Shown here in pieces: positions 38,523 through 45,972 of a stretch of 64,000 bases of DNA (positions are counted from its first letter, which is position 1; each line of letters starts with the position of its first letter). Position numbers and translations under genes: made by a program. The notes under the pieces were generated by a model that saw only the letters and a list, made by a program, of their open reading frames with translations, made no database searches and had not been told where the DNA came from. Source of the stretch: Leeuwenhoekiella sp. MAR_2009_132 (GTDB lineage Bacteria > Bacteroidota > Bacteroidia > Flavobacteriales > Flavobacteriaceae); assembly GCF_000687915.1 (NCBI RefSeq), contig NZ_JHZY01000004.1, positions 1,870,001 through 1,934,000 on the forward strand. Reading direction: 5' to 3'.

Positions 38523-38536
38523 CGAAAGCGTTTGCG
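38523..38536 (+). promoter_or_regulatory. Probable LacI-family operator upstream of the MFS sugar transporter
   Basis: CGAAAGCGTTTGCG matches 12 of 14 bases of the CGAAAACGTTTTCG palindrome found between lacI and the TonB receptor gene. It lies about 70 bp before the transporter ATG. This suggests that the transporter belongs to the same repressor regulon despite lying on the other side of lacI. Confidence 0.65.
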
Positions 38537-38605
38537 TTTTCTGTATTGCTATTTTAAAACAACTTTCTATTTCTACATTTAATTATAATCTATTAATATT
38601 CTTTT

Positions 38606-39955
38606 ATGAATAAGATATTGAGTGCAATTAATAAACCTAAACTTTCATTCTGGCAAATTTTCAATATGAATGTTGGTTTTCTCGGTATTCAGTTCAGTTT
38701 TGGACTTCAGCAAACAGCCATAAATCCTATCTTTTTATTTTTAGGTGCTTCAGAAGATATGCTGCCTATTTTAAATATTGCAGGGCCTATTACGGGACTT
38801 GTGATTCAGCCAATAATTGGTGCTATTTCTGATAAAACCTGGTTGCCAAAATGGGGTGGTCGAAGAAAACCTTTCTTTCTTGTGGGAGCGCTAATAGGAA
38901 GTTTGTGTTTATTTGCTTTTCCATACAGTCCGGCGCTTTGGTTTGCTGTAGGTTTACTCTGGATTCTTGATGTGGGAAACAATATGGCGATGGAGCCCTA
39001 TCGTGCTTTCGTGGGAGATAAATTACCTGCAAAGCAATTGAGTTTAGGATATCAAATGCAAAGTCTTTTTGTAGGCGCAGGTATAGTTCTTGCAAACGCT
39101 TCAATCTTCCTATTTCAAGATTGGTTTGGTGGAGGCGATGTAGCTGATGCTGCAGGCTCGATCCCAAAATGGTTATATTATTCGTTTTTTATAGGAGCTG
39201 TACTTTCAGTAGGAACAATTTTGTGGTCTGTTTTAAAAACTCCTGAAATCCCACCTACAGAAGAGGAACTTGACGAAATTAACCAGCATAGAGCACTTCC
39301 ATTTTCACAGCGGTTAAAAATACCATTTATTGAGATTGCAAGCACCATTAAAGAAATGCCTCGATTTATGTGGCGTGTTGCAGGAGTGTATTTATTTCAG
39401 TGGTATGCATTATTTATTTACTGGCAGTTTACGGTGCCTTTATTTAAAACAACAATGGGTTTCAATACTTCACAGGCAGCCGCACAGGCAGCAAAGATGA
39501 GTACGACTTATAATATCACCACTATTGTAGTAGCATTAGCACTAGTGCCGTTAACTTTGAAATTTGGGGGACGTAAAGTGTATTCTTTAAGTCTTTTTGG
39601 TTCTGCACTAGCACTGCTTACGATACCCTACATTACAGATCCTATATTAGTATTATTACCTATGATCTTATTCGGAATAGGATGGGCGGCGATGATGGGT
39701 ATTCCGTACACGATGGTTTCTAAAATTGTTCCTCAGAAAAAAAGAGGTATTTATATGGGTATTTTAAATATGATGATTGTAATCCCAATGGGTATTCAAA
39801 CAGTCTCTTTTGGTCCTATTTATAAATATTTATTAGGTGGTAATGCAGTAAATGCAATACTTTTTGGTGGTGTGTTCTTTATGATCGCAGCAATTTTGGC
39901 ATTACGACTAAAGCCAAAACACGCAGAGAAAGTATTTGAAGAGACAGAAGGATAA
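38606..39955 (+). CDS. MFS sugar transporter, SUT/SLC45-like (probable sucrose:H+ symporter)
   Basis: A 449-residue twelve-helix MFS carrier. After the second helix it reads GPITGLVIQPIIGAISD followed by GGRRKPFF (residues 84-91). This closely follows the signature of plant sucrose transporters and animal SLC45 proteins (GPxxGLxVQPxxGxxSD then GRRRPF). The conserved loop and the neighbouring fructokinase and GH100-like genes argue for sucrose or a related disaccharide, carried intact into the cytosol with protons. It is convergent with the LacI gene, 7 bp apart. Maltose-type disaccharides are the main alternative. Confidence 0.85.
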   Translation: MNKILSAINKPKLSFWQIFNMNVGFLGIQFSFGLQQTAINPIFLFLGASEDMLPILNIAGPITGLVIQPIIGAISDKTWLPKWGGRRKPFFLVGALIGSLCLFAFPYSPALWFAVGLLWILDVGNNMAMEPYRAFVGDKLPAKQLSLGYQMQSLFVGAGIVLANASIFLFQDWFGGGDVADAAGSIPKWLYYSFFIGAVLSVGTILWSVLKTPEIPPTEEELDEINQHRALPFSQRLKIPFIEIASTIKEMPRFMWRVAGVYLFQWYALFIYWQFTVPLFKTTMGFNTSQAAAQAAKMSTTYNITTIVVALALVPLTLKFGGRKVYSLSLFGSALALLTIPYITDPILVLLPMILFGIGWAAMMGIPYTMVSKIVPQKKRGIYMGILNMMIVIPMGIQTVSFGPIYKYLLGGNAVNAILFGGVFFMIAAILALRLKPKHAEKVFEETEG

Positions 39956-39979
39956 TACATTACTAAATAATTGTATTAT
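39952..39979. terminator. Weak bidirectional hairpin between the transporter and lacI
   Basis: ATAATACA (39952-39959) pairs with TGTATTAT (39972-39979) across the stop codons of two convergent genes. It is AT-rich and lacks a long U run, so it is weak support only. Confidence 0.35.
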
Positions 39980-41000
39980 TTGTTGAATCACGGGTTATTA
40001 AAGCAGTAGGTAAAACTACTGTTTTATGCTTTATAGCGGTTTTTTGTTTACCTGCGTTCAATTCTTTCAGCAATAATTTAAATGCTTTTTTACCCATTTT
40101 AAACCCCGGTTGATCTACCGTGCTCAATGTGGGCGTAATTGCAGAAGATACAAACCAATTACTAAATCCCATTAAAGCAATATCCTGTGGCATTTTTATA
40201 CCCTTTTCATTAAAAACTTTAATGGCGCCTACCGCAACTTGATCTGCACCCGTGAATAAACCATCTATGTCTGTATGATCTTGAAGTAGTTTTTCTGCAT
40301 TTCTAATGCCGTCTTCAAAATCTACTGCAGGGCATTCGTAAACTATAGAAGGGTCGTACGGAATATTGTAATCTTTTAATGCCTGTTTGTACCCAAGGAA
40401 ACGGTCGATTGCGTTTTGAGGAATAAGTGTTCCTCTAAAATGTGCAATGCGTTTACAGCCATTTTTTAATAAATGAGAGGTAGCAATGTACGCTGCTTTG
40501 CGATCATCAATAACAACTTTAGAACAGGGTACAACCTTAGCTATTTTATCAAACATCACTAATGGAATTTTACGGTCTATGACTTCTAAAAGATGTCTAA
40601 AATCATCAGTTTTATTTGCGAGCGAAATTATAATACCGTCTACACGTTTATCAATAAGAAGATCTATTTGCTTTTTCTCTAGCTCATAGGATTCATTAGA
40701 CTGAAGAACTATTACGAGATATCCTTTTTTTTCTGCAAGTTCTATAATGCCGTTAACAACCGTCGAAAAAAAATGATGTACAACATCAGGAATGATCACA
40801 CCTATAATTCTAGATTCTTTAGTTCTTAAATTAACAGCAAACGAGTTTGGTTTGTAATTGAGACTTTCAGCAATCTCAAGAACTTTTTTTCTGGTTTTAG
40901 GGCTTACATCTTTATAACCTTTCAAGGCTTTTGAAACGGTAGTAATAGAAATGTTCAATTTTTCTGCAATATCTCTTAAGGTCGTCTGTTCCATACTCAA
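39963..41000 (-). CDS. LacI-family transcriptional regulator of the sugar locus
   Basis: A 345-residue LacI/GalR regulator. The N-terminal helix-turn-helix and hinge reads TLRDIAEKLNISITTVSKAL, then NYKPN. The periplasmic-binding-protein-like effector domain follows (GVIIPDVVHHFFS, DGIIISLANK, GLFTGADQVAVGAI). It is divergent from the TonB receptor gene; two palindromic operators lie between the two starts, so it probably represses both the receptor and itself until the sugar or a derivative binds. The effector is unknown. Confidence 0.93.
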   Translation of the reverse strand: MSMEQTTLRDIAEKLNISITTVSKALKGYKDVSPKTRKKVLEIAESLNYKPNSFAVNLRTKESRIIGVIIPDVVHHFFSTVVNGIIELAEKKGYLVIVLQSNESYELEKKQIDLLIDKRVDGIIISLANKTDDFRHLLEVIDRKIPLVMFDKIAKVVPCSKVVIDDRKAAYIATSHLLKNGCKRIAHFRGTLIPQNAIDRFLGYKQALKDYNIPYDPSIVYECPAVDFEDGIRNAEKLLQDHTDIDGLFTGADQVAVGAIKVFNEKGIKMPQDIALMGFSNWFVSSAITPTLSTVDQPGFKMGKKAFKLLLKELNAGKQKTAIKHKTVVLPTALITRDSTNNTII

Positions 41001-41042
41001 ATTTAAACATTGTACTATTAGCGCAACTATTTAAATGAAAAT

Positions 41043-41079
41043 CGAAAACGTTTTCGGTTAAATCGAAAACGTTTTCGAT
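41043..41079. promoter_or_regulatory. Tandem LacI-type operators
   Basis: Two palindromes: CGAAAACGTTTTCG at 41043-41056 and an 18-bp perfect palindrome ATCGAAAACGTTTTCGAT at 41062-41079. Their centres (CpG steps) are 21 bp apart, two turns of the helix, so two repressor dimers would bind the same face. They lie 42 bp from the lacI start codon and 73 bp from the receptor start codon. Confidence 0.88.
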
Positions 41080-41152
41080 GATTTTTTAATCATTTCTACT
41101 TTATAAGTCTATTTAATTTGAGGGTATCAAGTAATCATTAAATCATATTGAG

Positions 41153-43783
41153 ATGAGATTAAATAGGTTTTCAAACGTTTTCTTACTAGTACTATTTTTA
41201 GTAGTAGGATCTGGCCTTATGGCCCAATCAACAATTTCTGGTACTGTAAAAGATAATGCTGGTATGGCATTGCCGGGAGTAAATGTTATTCTTGAGTCTA
41301 TGAGTAAAGGCTCTGTTACAGACTTTGATGGGAATTATACTATTACAGATGTTGCTGATGGCTCTTATACAATACTAGTATCTTATGTAGGTTTTAAGAC
41401 TGAAAAAAGAGCGATCACAATTAGCGGAGAAGATGTGGTTTCTAACTTTGATTTACAAACTGACGCACAATCTTTAGATCAGGTAATTGTAACCGGTGTT
41501 GCAAACCCAAGATCACGTATAGAATCTAGTGTTTCGGTTACGAGTTTAAAGCCAGAAGTGGTTCAGCAATCTGCGCCAAGAAGTACCGCTGAGATTTTTA
41601 GAACCATACCGGGTATTCGTTCAGAATCTTCAGGTGGTGAAGGGAATGCGAACATCGCAGTACGTGGGGTGCCTATTTCTTCCGGCGGATCTAAATATGT
41701 ACAATTACAAGAAGATGGTTTGCCAGTATTATTGTATGGTGATATATCTTTTGGTACAGCAGATATCTTTACCCGTTTTGACAGCAATGTAGCTCGTATT
41801 GAAGCTATACGTGGGGGTTCTGCATCAACATTATCTTCAAACTCTCCGGGTGGTATTATAAACATCATTAGTAAAACCGGAAAACAAGAAGGCGGTTCTG
41901 TAGGAACTACTTTAGGTCTTGATTACAGTAGTTTCCGTACAGATTTTGATTATGGGGGTAAGATAGGTGACGGTTTATATATGCATATGGGTGGTTTTTA
42001 CCGCGTAGGTGAAGGTGTGCGTCCTGCAGATTTTACTGCAAATAATGGAGGCCAGTTTAAATTTAATATCACTAAGGAATTTGAAAAAGGCTATGTGCGT
42101 TTAAGCGCCAAGTATCTTAATGATCGTGCTATCGCTTACCTTCCGGGACCGGTTGCCGTTACAGGTACTAACGCAAACCCTGAGTTTTCAGATTTAGCTA
42201 ATTTTGATGCAACCCGCGGAACACTGCATACCCCATTCCTTGAGCAAAATGTAGGTTTTGGTCCTAATGGTGACTTGCGAAGATCTAAAATTTCTGACGG
42301 TATGAACCCCGTGAGTACTTCAGTAGGTCTTGAGGCTTCATTTGATTTAGGGAACGATTTTAAGATTAAAACAAACGGAAGATTTAGTATGAATAAAGGA
42401 AGATTTGTATCTCCTTTCCCTGCGCAGGTTGCAACTGCTGGTGCGCTACTAGGTGATGATTTTGCTGCAGCTAACAATTGGAGTTCTTTTCAATACGCAA
42501 ATGGTGATGGCGCCGTAGCCAATGATGCGGTTTTAGCGCGTATTCATCTATTTGATACAGAGCTTAACAACTTCAATAACTTTATGAATGATATTAAGCT
42601 TACTAAGAAGTTAAATAACTTAAACGTTACTTTAGGTTTCTTTAAATCTATGCAAAATATCTCAATGTCCTGGTTGTGGAATTCCTATCTGCAAGAGGTA
42701 TCAGATGATAATGCGCGTTTAGTAAATATAGCTGATGCAGCGGGTAATTCTTTAAGTGAAAACGGACTTTATGCATACGGGACACCATTTTGGGGCAATC
42801 TACATCGTAATTACGATACGCGTTATAATGTATCTGCACCCTATGTTAACTTAGGTTTTGAAGCTTCAGAAAAATTAAATTTTGATGCAAGTTTACGTGT
42901 TGATTTAGGTAGAGTTGATGGTACATTCACTGGTGGTACTTCAAGACAATTTGATGTAAATAATGATGGTATTATATCTGTGCCAGAACAAAATGTTTTT
43001 GCTGTAGATAATGCTAATGCAACTACTGTTAACTATGATTATGATTATGTATCGTATTCTGTAGGAGCTAATTTATTGCTAACAGATCGTCAGGCGGTAT
43101 TTGGTAGATATAGCCGTGGTGCTTCTGCAAAAGCAGATCGTATTTTATTCTCAGGTTTAAATTATCTTGATGGTGATGCAATTAATGGTTTAGATTTTAT
43201 CAACCAGGCAGAATTAGGATATAAAAACAACTTTGAGAAAGGTGCACTTTATGTAACTGCTTTTTACGCTAAAACTATTGAAGAAGGCGGGTTTGAAGCA
43301 ACTTCGCAAACTATTATAGAAAATGATTACAGATCACTAGGTCTGGAGATTGAAGGTTCTTATTCCTTTGAAGATTTTAGCTTAAGAGGAGCTCTTACTT
43401 ATACAAATGCGAAGATAGATTCTGGGGATAATGAAGGAAATAAGCCACGTAGACAGCCAGACTTTATTTTTAACGTAATCCCTACTTACGATTTTGGTGC
43501 TGCAAAGCAAAATTCTGTAGGATTAAGCTTTGTAGGTCAAACTAAGGCGTATGCTCAAGATTCAAATGAACTTATTCTACCGGGATTTGTTATGGTTAAC
43601 AGTTTTGTTAAAGTAGGTATTACAGAGTCTTTAAGCGCTAATATTTCAGCAAACAACATTTTTGATTCTTTAGGTATTACTGAAGCTGAAGAAGGAAGTA
43701 TTATAGAAGGACAAACAAATTTTGTTAGAGCAAGAGCTCTAAGCGGTAGATCGTTAAGCCTTTCACTCAACTATTCGTTCTAA
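41153..43783 (+). CDS. TonB-dependent receptor with carboxypeptidase-regulatory-like domain (no SusD partner)
   Basis: An 876-residue outer-membrane receptor. A signal peptide ends LMAQ. A carboxypeptidase-regulatory-like domain follows (about residues 27-105: SGTVKDNAGMALPGVNVIL, VSYVGFKTEKR), then a plug domain (about 115-245, including VIVTGVANPRSR and STLSSNSPGGIINIISKTG). A 22-strand barrel ends in LSLSLNYSF with terminal Phe. There is no SusD-like lipoprotein beside it, so it works as a stand-alone TonB receptor, like the sucrose receptor SuxA of Xanthomonas. LacI-type operators precede it. Confidence 0.93.
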   Translation: MRLNRFSNVFLLVLFLVVGSGLMAQSTISGTVKDNAGMALPGVNVILESMSKGSVTDFDGNYTITDVADGSYTILVSYVGFKTEKRAITISGEDVVSNFDLQTDAQSLDQVIVTGVANPRSRIESSVSVTSLKPEVVQQSAPRSTAEIFRTIPGIRSESSGGEGNANIAVRGVPISSGGSKYVQLQEDGLPVLLYGDISFGTADIFTRFDSNVARIEAIRGGSASTLSSNSPGGIINIISKTGKQEGGSVGTTLGLDYSSFRTDFDYGGKIGDGLYMHMGGFYRVGEGVRPADFTANNGGQFKFNITKEFEKGYVRLSAKYLNDRAIAYLPGPVAVTGTNANPEFSDLANFDATRGTLHTPFLEQNVGFGPNGDLRRSKISDGMNPVSTSVGLEASFDLGNDFKIKTNGRFSMNKGRFVSPFPAQVATAGALLGDDFAAANNWSSFQYANGDGAVANDAVLARIHLFDTELNNFNNFMNDIKLTKKLNNLNVTLGFFKSMQNISMSWLWNSYLQEVSDDNARLVNIADAAGNSLSENGLYAYGTPFWGNLHRNYDTRYNVSAPYVNLGFEASEKLNFDASLRVDLGRVDGTFTGGTSRQFDVNNDGIISVPEQNVFAVDNANATTVNYDYDYVSYSVGANLLLTDRQAVFGRYSRGASAKADRILFSGLNYLDGDAINGLDFINQAELGYKNNFEKGALYVTAFYAKTIEEGGFEATSQTIIENDYRSLGLEIEGSYSFEDFSLRGALTYTNAKIDSGDNEGNKPRRQPDFIFNVIPTYDFGAAKQNSVGLSFVGQTKAYAQDSNELILPGFVMVNSFVKVGITESLSANISANNIFDSLGITEAEEGSIIEGQTNFVRARALSGRSLSLSLNYSF

Positions 43784-43810
43784 ACCCCCTTATTATAATT
43801 AAATTGTATT

Positions 43811-43844
43811 GTAGTGGATTAATTCTCAGTAATTAATCCACTAC
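43811..43844 (+). terminator. Strong hairpin between receptor and hydrolase genes
   Basis: A perfect 14-bp stem GTAGTGGATTAATT (43811-43824) / AATTAATCCACTAC (43831-43844) has a 6-nt loop, 28 bp beyond the receptor stop. Only TTATTT follows, so termination would be partial. It may instead protect the receptor mRNA 3' end and lower expression of the downstream enzymes. Confidence 0.6.
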
Positions 43845-43876
43845 TTATTTAAAAAATAACCAAACAAGTTTTAGTT

Positions 43877-45046
43877 ATGATAGAATACAATAAAGCAAAA
43901 GATTTACTTCATAAAGTAGCTTCTCCACAAGGTTTTCTTGCAAGCGCCAACGATATTTCAAATTATAGGAGAGTTTGGGCACGTGATGGTGTTATATGCG
44001 GTTTAGCTGGTTTACTTGATGGTGATAAACAGCTTACTGAAGCTTTTAAACAAACGCTTATCACATTAGCAACACATCAACATAAGCTAGGTAATATTCC
44101 TTCAAATGTTCATTTTGCAGAAACAGGTGTTGAAATCAGTTTTGGAGGGCTAGCCGGTCGTGTAGATACAGTTTCCTGGTTTATAATAGGAGTTTGTCAA
44201 TATGTACATAAAACGGGAGATACCGCTTTTTTTAAATCTATGAATGAAGCTATAGAAAAGGGGTTTGCATTAATGCATAGTTGGGAGTACAATGATGGAG
44301 GTTTAATGTATGTACCGCGCAGCGGAAACTGGGCTGATGAATATCCTACTCAAGGTTTTATTTTATATGATCAATTACTTCGTGTCTGGGCTATGCGTTC
44401 GTATCTAAACCTAGTGGAAGATGCAGATTTAAAGTCTAAGGTAAAGACCATTGAAAGTAAACTCGTCAAAAATTATAAGCAGCGTGGTGAGCAAGAAGCT
44501 GTTTATCATCCTAAAGCATATTCTAATCTTGATAAAAAACCGTATTGGGTAGCATCCTTGGAGCCTGCTGGTTATCAAACGCAGTTTGACGCATTTGCTA
44601 ACAGCCTTGCACTTATGCTAAAATTAGGAAGTCAAGACGATCAGGATGAGTTACTCGCTTATACAGAAACTACTCGTAAAGAATTAAAAACAAATCTCCT
44701 GCCTGCTTTTTGGCCCGTAATTAAAGAAGGAGATGAAGACTGGCGTTTTCTAACAAATAATTGTAAGTATGAGTTTAGAAACTATCCCTATGAATTTCAC
44801 AATGGGGGAACCTGGCAAATGGTTAATGGTTTTTATGGTTTGGGGCTTGTGCACTTAGGAAAACAAGATATAGCACAAGAGGTGTTAGGTCACATAAATA
44901 CTTTAAATGCCTATGAAGATTGGTCATTTTACGAAAATTTTAATTCTCAAACAGGGGCGCCTAATGGTGTGCCTTATTGTACTTGGAGCGCAGCTGGTGC
45001 TATTTTAATACAACAAGCTCTAAACGGTAATACACTGGCATTATGA
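43877..45046 (+). CDS. GH100-like (alpha/alpha)6-barrel glycosidase, probable neutral invertase
   Basis: A 389-residue cytosolic protein without a signal peptide. General annotation would call it a glycogen-debranching-like protein. The order of motifs matches GH100 alkaline/neutral invertases: WARDGVICGLAGLL (residues 34-47), GRVDTVSWFIIGV (94-106; GH100 has GRVDSGLWWI), ADEYPTQGFILYDQLLR (153-169), a YWVASLEP block with QFDAFANSLALML, and DWRFLTNN leading to FHNGGTW (GH100 HNGGSW). The predicted reaction is sucrose to glucose plus fructose, consistent with the downstream fructokinase, with which it overlaps by 4 bp. Activity is inferred; other alpha-glucosidase activity is possible. Confidence 0.7.
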   Translation: MIEYNKAKDLLHKVASPQGFLASANDISNYRRVWARDGVICGLAGLLDGDKQLTEAFKQTLITLATHQHKLGNIPSNVHFAETGVEISFGGLAGRVDTVSWFIIGVCQYVHKTGDTAFFKSMNEAIEKGFALMHSWEYNDGGLMYVPRSGNWADEYPTQGFILYDQLLRVWAMRSYLNLVEDADLKSKVKTIESKLVKNYKQRGEQEAVYHPKAYSNLDKKPYWVASLEPAGYQTQFDAFANSLALMLKLGSQDDQDELLAYTETTRKELKTNLLPAFWPVIKEGDEDWRFLTNNCKYEFRNYPYEFHNGGTWQMVNGFYGLGLVHLGKQDIAQEVLGHINTLNAYEDWSFYENFNSQTGAPNGVPYCTWSAAGAILIQQALNGNTLAL

Positions 45047-45972
45047 AAAAAGATATAGATATTATTTGCGCAGGTGAGATTCTTATAGACTTTATAGGAA
45101 TGCAGGATGACGTTTCTATAAAAGAGACAACTTCATATTCTAGATATTTAGGAGGAAGCCCAACAAATGTAGCCGTTAATACTTCTCGATTAGGACTTAA
45201 CCCTCGTATTGTTTGTGCAGTAGGTAATGATGGTTTAGGAGATTTTATGCTTAGTAAACTTGGTGCATATCATTTAGATACTCAAAGTGTAGGTGTTCGG
45301 GAGTCGCAACCTACGAGTGTGATTTTAGTTTCTAAAACTACAGGAACTCCAGATTTTGTAGCTTACAGAGAGGCTGATAAGGAGATTTATGAAGAGCAAC
45401 TTTCTCAAGAGCTGCTGGAGCGTTCAAAAGTTTTTCACACCACCTGTTTTGCATTGAGTAAAAAGCCTGCGCAAACAAGTATTATGGCCGCGGCGAAACG
45501 CGCTAAAGAATTGGGTTTGAAATTAAGTATAGATGTCAATTTTAGTGAGCGTATCTGGCCAGAACGAGAAGAGGCAATCGAGGTGATTAAATCTTATTGC
45601 AGTTACAATCCTTTAGTTAAAATAAGTGAAGATGATATGTTTCGCTTATTTGAAGTTCACAAATCACATGAAGAGATATTTGATTTTTTCCATAGTAATG
45701 GTGTTGATCTGGTTTGCTTAACACTAGGTGCTGCTGGTGTAAAAATAGCCAGAAGGAATGCTAAAATTTTAGAATTCCCAGCTTTAAAAATTGAATTTAT
45801 AGCAGATGCTACAGGAGCAGGAGATGCTTTTTGGTCTGGTTTTCTATTCGGATATTTATCTGGTTTTGATGATAAAGAAGCAGCTCAAACCGCATTAAAA
45901 ATGGCCGCTTTAAAACTTCAGTACCTGGGTAGCATTCCCGAAGATGTAGATGTTTTGGCTAAAATAAGCTAA
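45043..45972 (+). CDS. PfkB-family carbohydrate kinase, probable fructokinase
   Basis: A 309-residue ribokinase/PfkB kinase. The N-terminal glycine-rich signature is YLGGSPTNVAVNTSRLG and the C-terminal catalytic signature is DATGAGDAFWSGFLFG, where GAGD contains the catalytic Asp. The closest pattern is bacterial fructokinase (ATP plus fructose to fructose 6-phosphate). Its ATG lies inside the end of the GH100-like gene (4-bp ATGA overlap), so the two enzymes are made together, which fits cleavage of sucrose and capture of the released fructose. Other hexose kinases of the family cannot be excluded. Confidence 0.87.
   Translation: MKKDIDIICAGEILIDFIGMQDDVSIKETTSYSRYLGGSPTNVAVNTSRLGLNPRIVCAVGNDGLGDFMLSKLGAYHLDTQSVGVRESQPTSVILVSKTTGTPDFVAYREADKEIYEEQLSQELLERSKVFHTTCFALSKKPAQTSIMAAAKRAKELGLKLSIDVNFSERIWPEREEAIEVIKSYCSYNPLVKISEDDMFRLFEVHKSHEEIFDFFHSNGVDLVCLTLGAAGVKIARRNAKILEFPALKIEFIADATGAGDAFWSGFLFGYLSGFDDKEAAQTALKMAALKLQYLGSIPEDVDVLAKIS

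Follow-up and report, generated by a model that had tools for sequence, protein, structure and literature searches.

Bacterial loci that combine a TonB-dependent receptor, a LacI-family regulator and an intracellular sucrose enzyme have been described in several lineages. The sux locus of Xanthomonas consists of four genes, SuxA, SuxB, SuxC and SuxR, and the excerpted account of it lists no kinase (PMC1790865). We analysed a related arrangement of five genes in Leeuwenhoekiella sp. MAR_2009_132 (Flavobacteriaceae), located in a stretch of 64,000 nucleotides (contig NZ_JHZY01000004.1, positions 1,870,001 to 1,934,000; hereafter the window). These genes encode a major facilitator superfamily (MFS) carrier, a LacI regulator, a TonB receptor, a GH100-like hydrolase and a PfkB-family sugar kinase (Table 1). 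The initial annotation of the window had compared this layout with sux. The likeness, which takes in the TonB receptor, the carrier of the inner membrane, the LacI repressor and an intracellular sucrose enzyme, holds at the level of gene content, and SuxB is described as an amylosucrase-type sucrose hydrolase, whereas the enzyme in the window is GH100-like.

Two further systems each share some of the parts. The scr locus of Shewanella (ScrP, ScrK, ScrT-II, Omp-Scr, ScrR-II; PMC2996990) likewise has a TonB receptor, a permease, a LacI regulator and a kinase, but its excerpted description names a sucrose phosphorylase, a permease of the GGP family and a ScrK that is called a fructokinase. The Rgaga1 locus of R. 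gnavus carries AgaSK, an ATP sucrose kinase, beside the strict sucrose-6F-phosphate phosphorylase RgSPP, and in the excerpted texts the authors report the phosphate on the glucose half, whereas their phosphorylase needs it on the fructose half (PMC6521584, PMC7688924). The pairing of a sucrose kinase with a strict sucrose-6F-phosphate enzyme is the point of likeness with what is proposed for the window; the R. gnavus kinase, however, is fused to GH36, and uptake is by an ABC transporter. In Flavobacteriaceae, the maltose-type SusCD/GH65/bPGM loci also have a LacI regulator and an MFS carrier of the same superfamily, but they differ in their SusC/SusD pair, GH65 and bPGM, and their carriers are 36-38% identical to that of the window. 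A review of LacI-controlled sucrose regulons lists permeases, phosphotransferase systems (PTS), porins, phosphorylases, hydrolases and fructokinases, and the excerpted main text never mentions Bacteroidetes or Flavobacteria (PMC4052901). For two Bacteroidetes of a microbial-mat consortium, a reconstruction predicted TonB receptors for sucrose and beta-glucosides, with no GH100 in the excerpted text (PMC5507952). In the open-licence literature we found no description of a GH100 sucrose-6F-phosphate hydrolase, a PfkB sucrose kinase or the present pairing of the two.

We propose that the five genes form a LacI-controlled sucrose scavenging locus in which sucrose is phosphorylated before it is cleaved, and we give this reading a little better than an even chance. 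The TonB receptor would bring sucrose across the outer membrane, and the SUT-like carrier would move it on across the inner one. PfkB, in the cytoplasm, would then transfer a phosphate from ATP to C6 of the fructose half. Hydrolysis of the resulting sucrose-6F-phosphate by the GH100-like enzyme, in which D97 would serve as acid and E353 as base, would release glucose and fructose-6-phosphate. LacI, acting at a tandem operator pair and a weaker site, would keep both transcripts repressed as long as sucrose and its phosphate are absent. The substrates and the order of the steps are predicted from the genes, operators, fold, catalytic residues and exchanges of partner genes described below.

That the substrate of the locus is sucrose is very probable, as judged from related carriers and their neighbours. 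The carrier has the SUT/SLC45 signature, as noted in the initial annotation, and its best kin of solved structure is SUC1 (E 1.6e-17), with two SLC45A4 sequences at E 2.1e-6; up to E 1, the search of solved structures returned nothing beyond SUC1 and SLC45A4. Against the plant sucrose/H+ symporter model TIGR01301 it scored 95.5 bits, under the cut-off of 511. Hence, we place it by sequence in the SUT/SLC45 superfamily, as a bacterial SUT-like protein outside the TIGR01301 subfamily. The family alone says little, because homologues (E 1e-30) occurred in 206 of 392 genomes of the phylum. We fetched 40 places with a carrier homologue and typed the neighbouring genes. In a tree of 73 carriers, a starred clade (100/100) of 52 rows included all 47 carriers that neighbour a sucrose enzyme, which was GH100-like in 33 cases, amylosucrase-type in seven, similar to sucrose-6F-phosphate phosphorylase (SPP) in six and a sucrose phosphorylase in one. 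Most GH100 rows had been chosen via the hydrolase, and the amylosucrase, sucrose phosphorylase and first SPP rows via the carrier search. Its remaining five rows were four for which no enzyme is listed and L114, whose maltose label comes from a divergent GH65 (24% identity). Of the seven maltose-labelled rows, all except L114, namely five carriers of SusCD/GH65/bPGM loci and L126, fell outside the clade. The window carrier grouped with carriers beside phosphorylases. Its orthologues in L104, L103 and L105 (76-77% identity), in the same chromosomal slot or by its maeB flank, adjoin a sucrose phosphorylase in L104 (TIGR03852, 455 bits, cut-off 334) and an SPP-like enzyme in L103 and L105. Sucrose, the substrate proposed at the outset, is thus supported by one carrier clade shared by four types of sucrose enzyme.

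The kinase had been annotated as a dedicated fructokinase acting after hydrolysis. We did not find support for this role, as its orthologue usually adjoins a strict-type SPP. The kinase scored 124 bits against the fructokinase model PRK09434 (cut-off 450), and no curated fructokinase model reached its cut-off; the best NCBIfam model was TIGR04382 (5-dehydro-2-deoxygluconokinase), at 168 bits with a cut-off of 300. In L103 and relatives, the orthologous kinase adjoins a 578-residue GH13_18-type protein that scored 347.7 bits against a sucrose phosphorylase cut-off of 334.4 and aligned with IcSPP (6s9u) over stretches 6-177 and 232-572 (E 5.6e-205). According to its excerpted description, IcSPP was active with fructose-6-phosphate or sucrose-6F-phosphate and with no other compound tested, its clade takes in Flavobacteriia, and R152, E264, K364, Q378 and K434 are predicted to bind the fructose-6-phosphate part (PMC6720575). 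All five residues were kept in 46 of 46 SPP-like proteins, and K373 in 45 of 46. At these six positions the L104 sucrose phosphorylase carries P, E, L, Q, R and N, so that E264 and Q378 do not discriminate.

A PfkB kinase of the window type stood directly beside the SPP gene in 40 of the 46 loci (6/6 of the first ones and 34/40 of a family sample, the latter at 49-57% identity). No match to PTS EIIC (PF02378) was found in nine genomes, four of them with SPP loci, or in 43 further SPP genomes, a result that covers this one family and no other PTS family; PF02378 matched in 7 of 14 control genomes. Since a strict-type SPP stands beside the kinase in genomes without a PTS EIIC match, its sucrose-6F-phosphate most likely comes from an ATP-dependent kinase, for which PfkB is the candidate. 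It is more likely, on this comparative evidence, that PfkB phosphorylates sucrose before cleavage. The kinase tree of 74 rows (L066, L109, L022, L056, L057 and five amylosucrase rows were left out) requires three changes of the partner label between GH100 and SPP, two of which are forced by starred branches. One swap is firm: L112 (SPP) joins L064, L122 and L123 (GH100-like) on a starred branch. In an earlier tree of 47 PfkB rows, SPP-linked kinases occupied two starred places; in the larger tree, the place of L037 among the SPP rows is weak. Five of the seven amylosucrase loci also have a PfkB kinase, but these form a separate clade (24-25% identity), and amylosucrase frees fructose. No kinase adjoins the sucrose phosphorylase in L104.

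A P-loop kinase (PF00485) showed parallel behaviour. It matched in 27 of 395 genomes, and the four closest matches (at least 39% identity) adjoin GH100-like genes, so that every sampled genome with a close copy (G118, G095, G254, G368) shows this neighbourhood. Among the weaker matches (24-28%), the eight places fetched contained no sucrose genes. In L163, a P-loop kinase lies four genes upstream of an SPP gene, at the head of the same co-directional run, and it nests among the GH100-linked ones, nearest to that of L054 (45%, support 0.99). PfkB and the P-loop kinase thus each occur with both SPP and a GH100-like enzyme. All four pairings exist, as one would expect were sucrose-6F-phosphate the shared intermediate. 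The general form of this proposal has in our view an even chance of being correct: a PTS-free route in Flavobacteriaceae in which a PfkB kinase, exchanged in some lineages for a P-loop PRK-type kinase, supplies sucrose-6F-phosphate to either a GH13_18 phosphorylase or a GH100 hydrolase, the two enzymes being interchangeable. The kinase domain of R. gnavus (215 residues) was modelled on the uridine kinase 3ASY according to the excerpted text, and the P-loop kinase also matches 3ASY, at no better than E 0.067.

The GH100 kinship of the hydrolase was confirmed by its match to PF12899 (69.6 bits, cut-off 23.6), by its predicted (alpha/alpha)6 fold, which is closest to InvA, InvB and CINV with a gap to the next-best fold, and by its aligned Asp and Glu. 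D97 and E353, the predicted acid and base, were invariant in alignments of 20 and of 48 rows and align with the catalytic Asp and Glu of InvA, which we take to be D188 and E414. Compared with Anabaena InvA and InvB and the Arabidopsis neutral invertase, the hydrolase is 19-20% identical by structural alignment and shorter, with 389 residues against 427-457 resolved residues. In the 20 aligned GH100-like proteins, 19 of which stand beside or in a locus with a kinase (L055 is the exception), Arg was present at R32 in 18, at R95 in 19 (Lys in one) and at R169 in 19. A profile alignment placed Q in the R32 column of InvA, InvB and CINV1, and F in the R169 column of InvB and CINV1, with InvA not covered there. 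It is no more than a guess that any of R32, R95 and R169 touches a phosphate. In another family of the phylum, a single frame of 719 residues (L058:8028-10187, minus strand) fuses a GH100-like domain with all three Arg to PfkB, next to an SSS symporter, a TonB receptor and a LacI regulator. This fusion indicates close coupling of both steps and fits either order.

More distant GH100-like sequences were also observed. In L061:8620-10701 (minus strand), a sucrose-6F-phosphate phosphatase domain (PF05116, 204.5 bits) forms a fusion with a distant GH100-like domain that has 28.5% identity to that of the window and S, S and W at the R32, R95 and R169 columns. A second GH100-like group (27-28% identical; L062:9102-10301, L063:9244-10422, L065:9085-10251 in genome G297, and L068:9208-10395) adjoins a conserved glycosyltransferase-like gene of 380 residues and has E, S or A, and V at the three Arg columns. 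This group is likely to have another function and was set aside from the hydrolase analysis.

Several observations weigh against phosphorylation before cleavage. The solved GH100 kin are named invertases, and the nearest solved kin of the kinase, 3hj6 (200.6 bits), is named a fructokinase. Of the 40 SPP-linked kinases, 35 cluster with a single GH-linked row in a weakly supported group (98/77), so that kinase specificity could have shifted with the partner. Five of the 46 SPP loci (L179, L182, L185, L187, L188) have neither kinase in the fetched stretch, and the PTS search was confined to PF02378. Among the hydrolases, R32 is absent in L060 and L152 and R169 in L054, while L055 has a GH100-like gene with R32 but no such kinase within 19.9 kb. 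In the profile alignment, R95 pairs with Pro in both InvA and InvB, whereas in CINV1 it is matched to an Arg lying upstream, a place where InvA and InvB carry Arg as well; the alignment is ambiguous, and we withdrew R95 as a clear phosphate-clamp residue, which slightly reduced our confidence in phosphorylation before cleavage. A rival reading is the classical order, as first annotated, in which a GH100-like neutral invertase cuts free sucrose and PfkB then phosphorylates the fructose. It agrees with the InvA/CINV1 fold and catalytic residues, with the fructokinase name of 3hj6, with a fusion compatible with either order, and with SPP-linked and GH-linked kinases standing mostly in different parts of the tree. 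However, it leaves unexplained the presence of this kinase family beside an enzyme that requires sucrose-6F-phosphate in genomes without a PTS EIIC match, and also the parallel behaviour shown by the P-loop kinase. We regard the classical order as a serious possibility, albeit with a less than even chance.

A kinase and a hydrolase that both accept sucrose as well as its phosphate, so that both orders run side by side, would reconcile the fructokinase-named kin with the SPP partnership, but nothing speaks positively for such bispecificity and we consider it very unlikely. The least probable reading is that the locus serves another disaccharide, such as trehalose or maltose. A GH37 neutral trehalase (PF01204) does occur in related loci, for example in Dokdonia (L020/L021), and the carrier family serves maltose-type loci too. 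Yet the GH37 gene there is additional to the GH100-like and PfkB genes and is lacking from the window locus, the hydrolase has GH100 as its best fold with a gap to the next, and all but one of the maltose-type carriers lie outside the clade that unites four sucrose-specific enzyme types. Neither the carrier nor the hydrolase proved nearest to maltose or trehalose families in sequence or fold, and we rejected these substrates on the carrier tree and the hydrolase fold. If phosphorylation indeed comes first, these bacteria would trap sucrose in the cell as a phosphate without a PTS, and the specificities of both PfkB and GH100 would be new, the latter because GH100 proteins of solved structure are invertases from plants and cyanobacteria, not enzymes that need a phosphate. 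The strict SPP-type phosphorylases of Flavobacteriaceae would then have the substrate source that has so far been missing, and the 'fructokinase' and 'GH100 invertase' of these loci would be misnamed in many genomes.

The hydrolase was present in four of 13 genomes of the genus, including that of the window, and across the phylum 16 of 296 sampled genomes had a match (E 1e-3), several of these matches being distant. In all 30 named loci, which were chosen by hydrolase, it was adjacent to PfkB. The architecture is not singular: all five genes were found in 14 of these 30 loci, in Kordia, Lacinutrix, Marinirhabdus, Patiriisocius and uncultured Flavobacteriaceae. There the MFS gene stands between receptor and hydrolase; the order of the window, with the MFS gene first and facing LacI, was not seen among the 14. 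Other named loci have a second MFS gene and a neutral trehalase of the Ca-binding type instead of the receptor, some with an SSS symporter. In three other Leeuwenhoekiella the slot contains only carrier (60-61% identical), hydrolase and kinase, so that the window differs in carrier, LacI and receptor. The flanks of the slot, queG and maeB-ruvA, are common to many relatives, whereas its contents vary: GH100-like with or without receptor, sucrose phosphorylase (L104), SPP-like (L103; L105 by the maeB flank), or the carrier alone without a sucrose enzyme beside it (L102, L113, L116 in the queG-maeB slot). Since the flanks are shared and the contents differ, different sucrose modules have entered one chromosomal slot. 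Even on the classical reading, this is a place where one sucrose enzyme or uptake component is exchanged for another.

The regulator had been predicted to come with matching operators, and a tandem pair that recurs in relatives bears this out. The exact 14-mer CGAAAACGTTTTCG has two copies in the 4.28-Mb genome, both before the receptor gene, and the window contained 3 matches to the operator 16-mer at a tolerance of three mismatches, where 0.31 would be expected. A pair of copies, neither with more than two differences and 20 or 21 bp apart, was kept in 20 LacI/receptor loci (L029-L039, L041, L045, L046, L064, L103, L105, L122, L123 and the window), in a scan that left out L058 and the loci from L150 on. 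Exceptions were L059, where a single weak copy occurs, and, in L041, an additional LacI/receptor pair of lower similarity. A search for the promoter box TAnnTTTG was uninformative (80 matches, 90.6 expected).

The five annotated genes stood where they had been placed, each with a Pfam domain match above its cut-off, and the start of the PfkB reading frame overlaps the hydrolase stop codon. Uptake without SusD was likewise upheld. The receptor scored 84.9 bits against the SusC model TIGR04056 (cut-off 368.25), and every open reading frame of at least 90 residues between 38.5 and 46 kb was either one of the five genes or a short antisense frame within one of them, with no SusC/SusD pair. The locus is therefore not a Sus-type polysaccharide utilisation locus, which is defined by that pair. 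The 93-nt spacer between receptor and hydrolase folds with a z-score of -3.87 (1 of 200 shuffles was equally good), and its hairpin is a possible attenuator or stability element.

Table 1. Features of the sucrose locus, in window positions.
Feature	Position	Strand	Details
Weaker LacI-type operator CGAAAGCGTTTGCG	38523-38536		2 of 14 positions off consensus; ~70 bp before MFS start
MFS carrier	38606-39955	+	449 aa; Pfam MFS_1; holds GPITGLVIQPIIGAISD and GRRKPFF
LacI-family regulator	39963-41000	-	Pfam LacI/Peripla_BP; reading frame opens with TTG at 41000, in-frame ATG two codons on
Operator 1, perfect palindrome CGAAAACGTTTTCG	41043-41056
Operator 2, perfect palindrome CGAAAACGTTTTCG	41064-41077		21 bp from operator 1
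TonB-dependent outer-membrane receptor, no SusD partner	41153-43783	+	876 aa; Plug, TonB barrel and CarbopepD_reg_2
RNA hairpin, 14 bp	43811-43844	+	receptor-hydrolase spacer; no T run after
GH100-like hydrolase	43877-45046	+	389 aa; Glyco_hydro_100; predicted substrate sucrose-6F-phosphate (rival: sucrose)
PfkB-family sugar kinase	45043-45972	+	309 aa; predicted sucrose 6F-kinase (rival: fructokinase)

Many related loci contain a GH37 neutral trehalase and usually a second MFS gene, several with a further MFS gene of 385-391 residues (L020-L027, L040, L042-L044, L112, L119, L151, L163, L168, L170, L171, L173, L174, L180, L181). These are perhaps joint sucrose and trehalose loci. In L106 (G127, another family), a carrier 77% identical to that of the window occurs without the other genes, which points to either transfer or contamination.

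The absence of GH32 claimed in the initial annotation holds for the locus but not for the genome. We rejected the idea that the organism lacks GH32, as C4:737000 is the site of a set of GH32 (318.7 bits), sugar porter and second PfkB genes, and C2 has a partial GH32N match that is weak (30.4 bits, cut-off 22.1). In the surrounding region (L066, G000:C4:727500-747300), GH65, bPGM and LacI genes are divergent from the GH32 set, which is a separate sucrose or fructan route.

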